Shown here one piece after another: positions 38,115-40,909 of a DNA stretch of 46,186 bases. Position 1 is the stretch's first letter; each line of letters opens with the position of its first letter. Source of the DNA: Candidatus Gastranaerophilales bacterium (GTDB lineage: Bacteria > Cyanobacteriota > Vampirovibrionia > Gastranaerophilales > Gastranaerophilaceae); the NCBI GenBank assembly GCA_944323705.1, contig CALUTM010000009.1, positions 1 to 46,186 of the forward strand, in the 5' to 3' direction. The notes below the pieces were generated by a model. It was not told where the DNA came from. It saw only the letters and a list, made by a program, of their open reading frames with translations, and made no database searches. The position numbers were made by a program, and so were the translations under genes.

Positions 38115-38126
38115 TACAGGGTGATT

Positions 38127-38798
38127 ATGAAAAAAAACGGTTTTACGATGGTTGAACTTCTCTTATGCCTTGCTATTATCGGTGTAGTAGCGGCAATGGG
38201 GATGACAATTACCAAACGCAGCACAGATAAAGCTTATAACTTGTATTACTATACAGGCTATATGAATCTTTATAATGCCATAGCGGATGCAAAGGCAGAA
38301 GCAATGTCTACAACAAACGAAGTTATGAATCACGTAAGCAACATCTTGGATGCTACCCCTAATCGCAACATAGTCCCATCAGGGAATGCTGGTTTGTCAC
38401 CGGAAACAATAGAAATAGAAATGACGGTTCCGCAGCGTAAAACCAAAACTAATAATGGACAAGCAACTGTAAAACTTTTATACATTAATGATGACGAAAA
38501 CGGATTACTTGTACCGTTGGTTCCAAGTAGTACGGATGTTCCTGACCTGCAAAACAGGCGGGACTTACTACCTGTATACATTGATGATGGCTTTGTAGGA
38601 CGTACTAGAAAGGTCGGCAATTCATACGAATATAAAGCACCTGCCTATTACTCATATAGAGAAGCTTACTGCAAATTAAACAACAATCAATCTTTAACTG
38701 TTTCAGGTAACACAGTAATAAATTGTGCGGGAATTGCAGCTTCTAATCAGGCAAATTCAGGCTTTTTAAAAATCGCCGACCCGAGAAAAGCAAGATAA
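38127..38798 (+). CDS. Type II/IV pseudopilin-like protein
   Basis: The 223-aa protein has a class III prepilin signal. After a short basic leader (MKKNG), FTMVELLLCLAIIGVVAAMG carries the cleavage site after G5 and the conserved Glu at +5. The C-terminal globular part is unfamiliar. The ATG at 38127 is preferred to GTG at 38121, since AGGGTG overlaps the latter. It should be processed by a prepilin peptidase and packed in a type IV pilus or type II secretion pseudopilus. It ends the DUF3326 operon at a strong terminator. Confidence 0.85.
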   Translation: MKKNGFTMVELLLCLAIIGVVAAMGMTITKRSTDKAYNLYYYTGYMNLYNAIADAKAEAMSTTNEVMNHVSNILDATPNRNIVPSGNAGLSPETIEIEMTVPQRKTKTNNGQATVKLLYINDDENGLLVPLVPSSTDVPDLQNRRDLLPVYIDDGFVGRTRKVGNSYEYKAPAYYSYREAYCKLNNNQSLTVSGNTVINCAGIAASNQANSGFLKIADPRKAR

Positions 38799-38811: not shown

Positions 38812-38850
38812 AAAAAAGAAACGAGATTTTAAAATCTCGTTTCTTTTTTT
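38812..38850. terminator. Long bidirectional terminator
   Basis: AAAAAAGAAACGAGATTTT (38812-38830) is immediately followed by its exact reverse complement (38831-38849), and T runs on. This gives a 19-bp perfect stem with A and T tracts at both ends. It lies between the convergent pseudopilin gene and tig and can serve both. Confidence 0.9.
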
Positions 38851-38864
38851 GCAAGTTCATTGAC

Positions 38865-40157
38865 CTATTTTAAATTTACCTTATTATTCTCAACCAAGAA
38901 TCGTGTAACCTTTTCATTCAATGCCTGTTGAGATATAGCATTAAATACTCCCGGAGTTTGAGCAAGCTGTTTAATCATCGTAGGAGTATCTATTTGATAC
39001 AACTTGCTTAAATCTGATAATTTAGCCCCAAATTCAGCCTGTGAAACGGTTATTTTTTCTTCCTTTGCAATTTTATCAATTACCAAAGAGTTTTTAACTC
39101 TAACTTCGGCGTCTTCTTTAAGGCTCTTCATGATATTATCGTATCCTTGAGCTTCAACAGCCTGTTCCCAAGTAAATCCCTGCATAGAGAGCTTTTGTCT
39201 GTATTCTTCCGCCAACTGGTCAGCTTCTCTGTCAATCATAGACTGCTGAATTTCCACTTTAGCATCTGACGTAACTTTTTCAAATATTGCTCTTTCTGAA
39301 TTTACTCTGTCAGCATCCGCCTTTTGATTATCAAGATATTTCTGTATATCAGCCTTTATATCATCAACTGTCTTAAACGGACCAACTTTTTGAGCAAATT
39401 CATCATTTAATTCAGGCAATACTTTTGTCTTAATTTCATTAATTTTACACTTAAATGTTGCCGGCTGACCTGCCAATTTCTTTTCGTGATACTCTTCAGG
39501 GAAAGTAACATTTATTTCAAATTCTTCACCAAGCGGTCTGTCAACAAGTTGTTCAGCAAATCCAGGAATAAAACTGGAATGAGCCAAATCCAAAGTATAG
39601 TTTTTGGCATCACCGTGTTCAATTTTTTCTCCGTTAGAATAACCTTCAAAGTCAAATACAACGATATCTGACGCTATGGTTTTTCTATCGGTTACAATGA
39701 CAGTCGTTGCATGCTGCTGCAGTAAACCGTCCAAAGACTTCTGCATTGCATCTTCAGGGATTTTATATTCATCCACATCAATCGTCAAATCTTTGTATTT
39801 ACCCAATTTAACCTCAGGACGCAATTCTAATTTCGCAACAATTTTTAAATCTTCGCCCAGTTTGAAGTTATAAGATTCAACATACGGTTGAGCAACTACA
39901 TCAAAATCATTTTCCTTTATAACTTGAGAAAAAATTCTCGGCAAAGCATTTTCAAGAGCTTCGTGCTTAATTCTGTCCTCACCAACATGCTGCTCAACAA
40001 TATTTCTGGGGGCTTTTCCTTTTCTAAAGCCCGGGATATTAACATATTGAGCTATTTTCTTTGCCGCATTGTTGTAGAAATCTACAGCATCTTTTGCGGG
40101 GATTTCAATATCTACTTTAACGATATTTTCCGGTTGTTTTTCAATTGTCGTATTCAT
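38865..40157 (-). CDS. tig: Trigger factor
   Basis: The 430-aa ribosome-bound chaperone and prolyl isomerase has an N-terminal ribosome-binding domain with IPGFRKGKAPR (the GFRxGxxP signature). A central FKBP-like domain includes DIVVFDFEGYSNGE and FPEEYHEKKLAGQ. The C-terminal helical arms span about 245-430. The start at 40157 is chosen because AGAGGA lies about 8 bases upstream; the in-frame start at 40214 would be unusual and lies across a hairpin. clpP and clpX, common neighbours, are absent here. The ribosome binding site is held in a long inverted repeat (40161-40209). Confidence 0.97.
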   Translation of the reverse strand: MNTTIEKQPENIVKVDIEIPAKDAVDFYNNAAKKIAQYVNIPGFRKGKAPRNIVEQHVGEDRIKHEALENALPRIFSQVIKENDFDVVAQPYVESYNFKLGEDLKIVAKLELRPEVKLGKYKDLTIDVDEYKIPEDAMQKSLDGLLQQHATTVIVTDRKTIASDIVVFDFEGYSNGEKIEHGDAKNYTLDLAHSSFIPGFAEQLVDRPLGEEFEINVTFPEEYHEKKLAGQPATFKCKINEIKTKVLPELNDEFAQKVGPFKTVDDIKADIQKYLDNQKADADRVNSERAIFEKVTSDAKVEIQQSMIDREADQLAEEYRQKLSMQGFTWEQAVEAQGYDNIMKSLKEDAEVRVKNSLVIDKIAKEEKITVSQAEFGAKLSDLSKLYQIDTPTMIKQLAQTPGVFNAISQQALNEKVTRFLVENNKVNLK

Positions 40158-40160
40158 TAA

Positions 40161-40209
40161 TATATCCTCTTTTGTACTACTTTTTAAAGTACTACAAACA
40201 GAGGATATA
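40161..40209 (-). promoter_or_regulatory. Hairpin sequestering the tig ribosome binding site
   Basis: In the minus-strand transcript TATATCCTCT pairs perfectly with AGAGGATATA, which contains the Shine-Dalgarno. The inner part TTTGTAGTACTT pairs with AAGTAGTACAAA at 11 of 12 positions around a TAAA loop, with one bulged G. The total stem is about 21 bp. There is no following T-tract, so it is not a typical terminator for the upstream regulator. Confidence 0.8.
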
Positions 40210-40222
40210 TGCAACTTTATAT

Positions 40223-40909
40223 TTAAACAAGTCCTTCTTTAACGGCTTTTACGGCAGCCTGAACTCTATCATTAACGCACATTTTCTGTAGAATTGAACA
40301 TACATGTGCCTTGGCGGTATGAACACTTACAATAAGCTCTTTGGCAATTTCCGTATTACTCTTACCTTCTACAAGATGTTTTAAAACTTCAAACTCTCTT
40401 TCTGTCAACGGCACCCTGCCTTCCTCACCTGACTTATCTTTTAATATACCAAGAGTTTCCTGCTTCGGGAACGAATCCAATACTTTTCGTGCAATAACCG
40501 GGTCAAGCCAACACACTCCGTTTTTTACATCTCTTATTACATCCGCAAGCTTTGCAGGGTCTATATCCTTGAGGCAATATGCCATGGCACCGGACGATAA
40601 TGACGCAATAACCTCTTCTTCCCTATCGTGTGATGTAAGTGCTATAACTTTGATATCTTTATTCATCTCTTTGACTTTTACGGTTGCTTCTATACCGTTC
40701 ATACCTGCAAGTCCCAAATCCATAAGTACAATATCAGGGGTATGTTGCTCTATCAGTTTAAGACCATCCATTGCATTATCACTTTCCGCTACTACATTTA
40801 TATCCTCATTGGAATTCAATGCACATCTTAGCCCGACTCGTGTAAGTTTAAAATCTTCAATTATAATTACACTTATCGTCTTTTTTTCTGTACGTACTGC
40901 GGTTGCCAT
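40223..40909 (-). CDS. NarL/FixJ-type response regulator
   Basis: The 228-aa two-component regulator has a receiver domain (about 12-130) with IIIEDF acids at E18 and D19, phospho-acceptor D64 in VLMDLGLAG, a Thr in ALTSH and a Lys in CLKD. The C-terminal LuxR-type HTH (about 165-225) reads LTEREFEVLKHLVEG and EIAKELIVSVHTAKAHV. The cognate kinase is not adjacent; the soluble kinase at 17874 is a candidate only by co-occurrence. It lies directly upstream of tig, with the hairpin between. Confidence 0.95.
   Translation of the reverse strand: MATAVRTEKKTISVIIIEDFKLTRVGLRCALNSNEDINVVAESDNAMDGLKLIEQHTPDIVLMDLGLAGMNGIEATVKVKEMNKDIKVIALTSHDREEEVIASLSSGAMAYCLKDIDPAKLADVIRDVKNGVCWLDPVIARKVLDSFPKQETLGILKDKSGEEGRVPLTEREFEVLKHLVEGKSNTEIAKELIVSVHTAKAHVCSILQKMCVNDRVQAAVKAVKEGLV

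Follow-up and report, generated by a model that had tools for sequence, protein, structure and literature searches.

Why should the ribosome-binding site of a chaperone gene lie inside one arm of a long hairpin? The window, by which we mean the whole 46,186-nt stretch of Candidatus Gastranaerophilales DNA that was analyzed, carries on its minus strand the trigger factor gene tig (38865..40157; 430 aa; start codon ATG at 40157-40155), preceded on the same strand by an open reading frame for a response regulator (RR; 40223..40909; stop codon at 40225-40223). A preliminary description of this DNA had named both genes, and Pfam bore out the identities, with PF05697, PF05698 and PF00254 in trigger factor and a receiver domain (PF00072) plus a LuxR/GerE-type DNA-binding domain (PF00196) in the regulator. 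Orthologues of tig were found in 64 of 65 genomes of the genus. Directly past tig, at 38812-38849, lies a perfect palindrome that forms a hairpin of 17 pairs and has T and A tracts, likely a two-way terminator between tig and a convergent pseudopilin-like gene (38121-38798).

The tig hairpin and the promoter within it

RNA folding reproduced the long stem that the preliminary description had placed in the RR-tig gap, with the geometry as claimed. In the outer stem, 11 pairs join 40210-40200 to 40170-40160 and include the Shine-Dalgarno (SD) sequence AGAGGA (40165..40170). The inner stem, which begins past a bulged G at 40199, has 6 pairs, a G-G mismatch (40192/40177) and 5 further pairs closed by a UAAA loop (40186-40183), while the base can be extended by four more pairs reaching into the AUG. 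The minimum free energy of 40140-40230 was -26.2 kcal/mol (z -6.05), a value that none of 200 dinucleotide shuffles equalled, and the tig leader was more stable than any other among the 229 SD-bearing 66-nt leaders sampled from 446 kb of this genome. An Rfam covariance-model scan of the window at gathering thresholds returned two tRNAs only and no match for the hairpin. The terminator search found no T-tract after the stem, where the sequence reads TTAATGAATACG, so that the hairpin is not an intrinsic terminator, as had been anticipated. The length of the stem would fit the double-stranded stem of about 20 bp of an RNase III site.

The 5' arm of the hairpin (40187..40210) overlaps a promoter. 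A -35 box, TTGCAT (40209..40214), is separated from a -10 box, TACTTT (40186..40191), by the 17-nt spacer ATATCCTCTGTTTGTAG (40192..40208), which holds the anti-SD motif TCCTCT and a conserved TTT[GA]TAG. The mRNA of tig itself is predicted to start at 40178..40180, about 7 nt past the -10 box. Since the tig promoter makes up the 5' arm, the gene's own transcript should be without that arm, and only RNA that reads through from upstream would carry it together with the 3' arm (40160..40182), which holds the SD and would be nearly whole in the gene's own mRNA. The SD was 0.4% unpaired (0.004) on a modelled RR read-through RNA versus about 77% on the tig mRNA, which, folded alone from its predicted start, had a 5' leader of ~21-23 nt and an open SD. 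The earlier proposal of a hidden SD is thus plausible for RNA entering from the regulator gene but not for the tig transcript, to which it had been assigned.

We compared this promoter in the window and 79 further tig loci from named records, all or nearly all of them Gastranaerophilales, after aligning the sequence upstream of the ATG. A sigma-70-type promoter was present in the gap in 79 of the 80 loci, with TTGCAT, TTGCAC, TTTACA or a close relative kept at the -35 position, a spacer of 17 nt in 75 loci and 16 nt in the other 4, and the first base of TANNNT 34-57 nt before the ATG. The alignment anchor required TTT[GA] and TANNNT, and those columns are therefore fixed by construction; the independent evidence is the -35 box and its distance, along with G at -13 (89%), G at -20 (85%) and T at -21 (94%). 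The two boxes thus show the conservation and the separation of 16-18 nt that mark a sigma-70-type promoter, although the -10 box of the window retains the TANNNT core alone. The promoter was also kept where the gene before tig is oppositely oriented, for example in L097 and L119, where tig must depend on this promoter. Throughout the genome, promoters of the type TTGC-N12-TTTRNNGTANNNT occurred 9 times versus once for the reversed pattern, several of them just before genes (for example in L168); TGTTTRTAGTANNNT by itself was hardly enriched (3 versus 2 reversed). In five loci (L079, L086, L089, L106 and L142) the RR terminator adjoins the tig promoter and contributes its T tail (..GTTTACA) to the -35 box, amounting to a fusion of terminator and promoter.

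The Rho RNA-binding domain (PF07497) was not found in genome G000 (99% complete) or in any of the 63 genus genomes searched, while the same search found it in 9 of 14 control genomes. With neither Rho nor a terminator, transcription running from the regulator gene into tig is to be expected. We propose, at a probability of about 0.58, that the tig hairpin silences such read-through RNA in the way that a hairpin of phage T4 gene e does, with the promoter spacer serving as the complement of the ribosome-binding site. The sigma-70-type promoter of tig would fire downstream of the 5' arm and yield a translatable mRNA with an open SD. Transcripts from the regulator gene, their presumed source, would contain both arms, form a stem of 22 pairs that shuts the SD, and so contribute nothing to the synthesis of trigger factor.

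Besides an RNase III site, the preliminary description had listed a switch on the tig mRNA itself, either a thermosensor or a coupling device opened by ribosomes leaving the regulator gene. The SD is indeed wholly paired in the long RNA, yet the gene's own mRNA should be without the 5' arm, and modelling from 25 to 70 C kept the stem shut throughout, the unpaired fraction of the SD reaching no more than 2.6% at the top of that range. We rejected an RNA thermometer on these predictions, namely a stem absent from the gene's own mRNA and no melting at physiological temperatures in the model. Coupling is unlikely on geometric grounds; with the base of the stem 12 nt past the RR stop codon and the SD over 50 nt past it, a ribosome halting at 40225-40223 would reach the stem base at most. 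Either kind of switch now seems extremely improbable.

Hairpin strength and gene order at tig

The gene order before tig differs within the genus, which provides a natural experiment. Where RR is directly adjacent without an intrinsic terminator (n = 7: the window, L077, L087, L088, L096, L102 and L113), every locus had a strong hairpin, with z from -2.1 to -7.7 and a mean of -4.71. Where RR precedes tig with, in nearly all cases, a terminator hairpin in between (n = 16), the mean z was -1.06 and most loci lacked a strong hairpin. Mean values were -1.07 for the 36 other tig loci of the genus and -0.66 for loci outside it. Arm duplex energies differed between the terminator-less RR-adjacent loci and those with RR and a terminator (Mann-Whitney p 9e-4). 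On the tig tree, terminator-less RR adjacency requires 5 changes, 4 of them on starred, that is, well-supported, branches. Among the four independent pairs of loci, hairpin strength changed in the same direction in 3.5 on average and in the opposite direction in none (p 0.125); with only four such pairs significance was out of reach.

The window and L077, which are not sisters on the tig tree, have equally strong stems (-24.6 and -24.9 kcal/mol) built from partly different base pairs. In the comparison of loci their z values were -7.7 and -7.6, and in both of them the native arms ranked first of all 59 partners. There were counterexamples to the association. Five loci with another same-strand neighbor and no clear terminator nevertheless had a weak hairpin (L118, L099, L117, L103 and L090), whereas L116, also with another same-strand neighbor, had a strong one; L075 and L106 possess a terminator and yet a strong hairpin, and strong hairpins occurred in other contexts in L067, L069, L071 and L091.

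These data bear on a rival account in which the hairpin, where a terminator is missing, ends or protects the RR mRNA as a block to exonucleases or a site for RNase III or other processing, and covers the SD merely for lack of space. This account predicts strong hairpins at terminator-less loci equally well, and the absence of Rho also favors it, although the missing T-tract means that the structure could not act there as an intrinsic terminator. We regard such a 3'-end device as the main, though unlikely, rival; it may hold alongside the silencing of read-through RNA.

Compensatory changes among relatives, which the preliminary description had named as a check on the stem, were nearly lacking across the genus (410 versus 397 ± 8 paired cells, with 99 of 2000 permutations as high), and for this reason we make no claim of genus-wide covariation in the outer stem of tig. 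They were discernible among the seven RR-adjacent loci, where the native arms gave -17.7 kcal/mol versus -15.5 kcal/mol when arms were permuted between loci (175 of 5000 permutations as good). Scored on SD accessibility, the same permutation was null (2726 of 5000), and tig loci outside the genus gave no arm-permutation signal.

A further possibility is that the stem is a by-product: promoter function would keep the spacer CT-rich, with its conserved CCTCT(GTTT), and the purine-rich SD would pair with it by chance. TCCTCT is widespread in the genus whatever the context, and both the paired-cell count, which barely exceeds permutation, and the lack of signal outside the genus agree with this account; the spacer TCCTCT could in part be inherited promoter sequence. 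Chance pairing is hard to reconcile with the z values and first-ranked native arms of the window and L077, with the restriction of a clear excess of hidden SDs to co-directional gene pairs, or with the arm-permutation results in three other genes (see below), and on balance we find it improbable.

Hidden SD sequences elsewhere in the genome

We scanned 462 leaders, called with a simple gene caller in 846 kb of the genome (two samples of stretches, the window included), for SDs with a modelled accessibility of 0.05 or less, and took expected values from shuffles that left the SD intact. Such SDs preceded 7 of 116 co-directional genes (gap 35-160 nt) versus 1.0 expected, and none of 40 shuffle sets reached 7; this excess comprises few cases, depends on crude gene and terminator calls, and uses thresholds picked after the data had been seen, the genes beyond tig having been found by looking. 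Operon-like pairs gave 0 versus 0.5 expected and all others 5 versus 2.3, so that the excess is clear only between co-directional genes. A control sample of 300 kb from E. coli, small as it is, contained 1 versus 0.6 expected of 36, no excess. The co-directional classes were merged because the scan had labelled the window and two other leaders 'codir_term', apparently falsely, the terminator finder having run across the leader hairpin itself. Three low-accessibility hits (L159, L167 and L160), whose start codons seem mis-called, are not used here as examples and were counted where the caller kept them.

In several of the leaders with hidden SDs, a -10-like box sits either within the loop or immediately 5' of the 5' arm. 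These leaders precede, by Pfam assignment of the families, gatA, a dapL-like class I/II aminotransferase gene, a uridine-kinase family gene, a 2-oxoacid:ferredoxin oxidoreductase alpha-like gene and lysA. The ilvD leader has the same layout, but its accessibility of 0.15 is above the threshold. The -35 boxes of these candidates match poorly, which makes their promoters less certain than that of tig. The -10-like box lies in the loop of the SD-hiding hairpin in lysA (L189, 19661, plus strand), the uridine-kinase family gene (L157, 9483-10325, minus strand), the oxidoreductase gene (L161, 5118-6209, plus strand) and also a gltD-like gene (L183, 1538-2899, minus strand).

For gatA, the aminotransferase gene and ilvD we assembled sets of 30 genus loci each. 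The aminotransferase leader (L161, 845-2080, minus strand; relatives L227-L256) has TATAAT and, directly after it, the perfect inverted repeat ATTCCTTATC..GATAAGGAAT over the SD. Many orthologues in the genus that have an upstream gene about 45-55 nt away retain the repeat, with changes that compensate one another; the arms read TATAATATTCCTTATC..GATAAGGAATATT in this genome and AATATCCTCAT..ATGAGGATATT in L251. In the ilvD leader (L164, 11085-12746, minus strand; relatives L257-L286) CCCCTTCGTGATAAAAT..GAAGGGG lies over the SD, the arms being CCCCTTC..GAAGGGG in this genome, ACAATCCCTTTCGT..ACGAAAGGGATTGT in L260 and CCTTTCGTG..CACGAAAGG in L277. The gatA leader (L182, 7801, plus strand) forms an SD-hiding stem in this genome and in L198. 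Other structures were seen in some relatives. Before ilvD in L281 and L286, the stem is another one, about GCAAGATTATTT..AAATAATCTTGC, which extends across the -10 box and stops just short of the SD, and gatA in L213, L216, L218 and L222 has instead an attenuator-like hairpin (GGGGA..TCCCC, then several T) located past the -10 box and ahead of the SD.

We swapped arms between loci of the directly adjacent, terminator-less context. None of 5000 permutations was as good as the native arrangement in the aminotransferase gene (-12.2 native versus -9.9 kcal/mol permuted, n = 25), in ilvD (-14.1 versus -11.0 kcal/mol, n = 20) or in gatA (-11.9 versus -8.2 kcal/mol, n = 15), counts that are not clean probabilities since the loci are related by descent. 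In other contexts the permutation gave no such effect on hairpin energy, although for gatA it did affect SD accessibility there (30 of 5000). The SD was more hidden in the direct context in the aminotransferase gene (p 0.0015) and ilvD (p 0.009), while gatA showed no effect of context (p 0.5). From these comparisons of sequence, promoter and SD arms appear to coevolve in the directly adjacent setting of all three genes.

The same alignments speak to two of the alternatives. If the hairpins served to form 3' ends, they would need no particular placement, yet in the aminotransferase gene and ilvD most of them have the SD at their center, even with free positions elsewhere in the gap. A second possibility is that the palindromes act as DNA, as repressor operators over the promoters, with no RNA stem at all; in tig and the aminotransferase gene the inverted repeat does overlap the -10 region. 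Loop lengths vary, however (mostly 4-17 in the aminotransferase gene and mostly 11-17 in ilvD), arm sequences differ between genes, and the aminotransferase stems contain 12 G-U and 0 A-C under a scoring that treats the two alike. Perhaps five independent events underlie this imbalance; it favors base pairing within the sense RNA, and we consider an operator highly improbable.

We tentatively extend the proposal made for tig to a recurrent arrangement in the Gastranaerophilales, though here we would put the chances below even. Where co-directional genes lie close together with neither terminator nor Rho, selection would make part of the downstream promoter, either its spacer or the segment from -10 to +1, complementary to the SD, and only RNA from the proper promoter would be translated. 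Further candidates in this genome are the dapL-like aminotransferase gene, ilvD, gatA, the uridine-kinase family gene, the oxidoreductase gene and lysA. If the proposal is true, the promoter itself is a lock that keeps neighbors translationally separate without a terminator in a Rho-less lineage, a phage trick has a place in bacterial housekeeping genes, and a constraint on promoter spacers is explained. Transcript levels from RNA-seq would then overstate the expression of genes reached by read-through in such genomes.

Comparison with known systems

RNA thermometers such as ROSE and fourU place the SD in a hairpin arm, within the gene's own mRNA, and their stems are of marginal stability. The tig hairpin has the SD in a hairpin arm in common with them, but neither that location nor marginal stability holds for it. 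In the transposase gene of IS10/Tn10, transcripts that enter from external promoters fold into a form that shuts the start region; there a mobile element limits its transposition, whereas neighboring chromosomal genes are concerned here. The literature that we searched for read-through hairpins, IS10 and long undecoded transcript isoforms in bacteria contained no precedent from cells.

Phage T4 has leaders of this kind before gene e, soc, 49 and I-TevI (PMC3014915). Long early transcripts of gene e are repressed about 100-fold, while translation is efficient from late transcripts, whose promoters are located in the 5' strand of the hairpin (PMC3014915). The tig locus resembles gene e in that a promoter, with -35 and -10 boxes at 40214-40186 and a predicted start site, lies within the DNA of the 5' arm, that RNA started upstream would hide the SD according to the model, and that local transcripts would be without the 5' arm. 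The gene e hairpin was tested experimentally, whereas the action of the tig hairpin is deduced from sequence and models. In T4 the device times late genes through a phage-specific late promoter; in tig and the other genes an ordinary sigma-70-type promoter would serve chromosomal housekeeping genes, apparently for insulation, and the likeness is one of working, not of descent.
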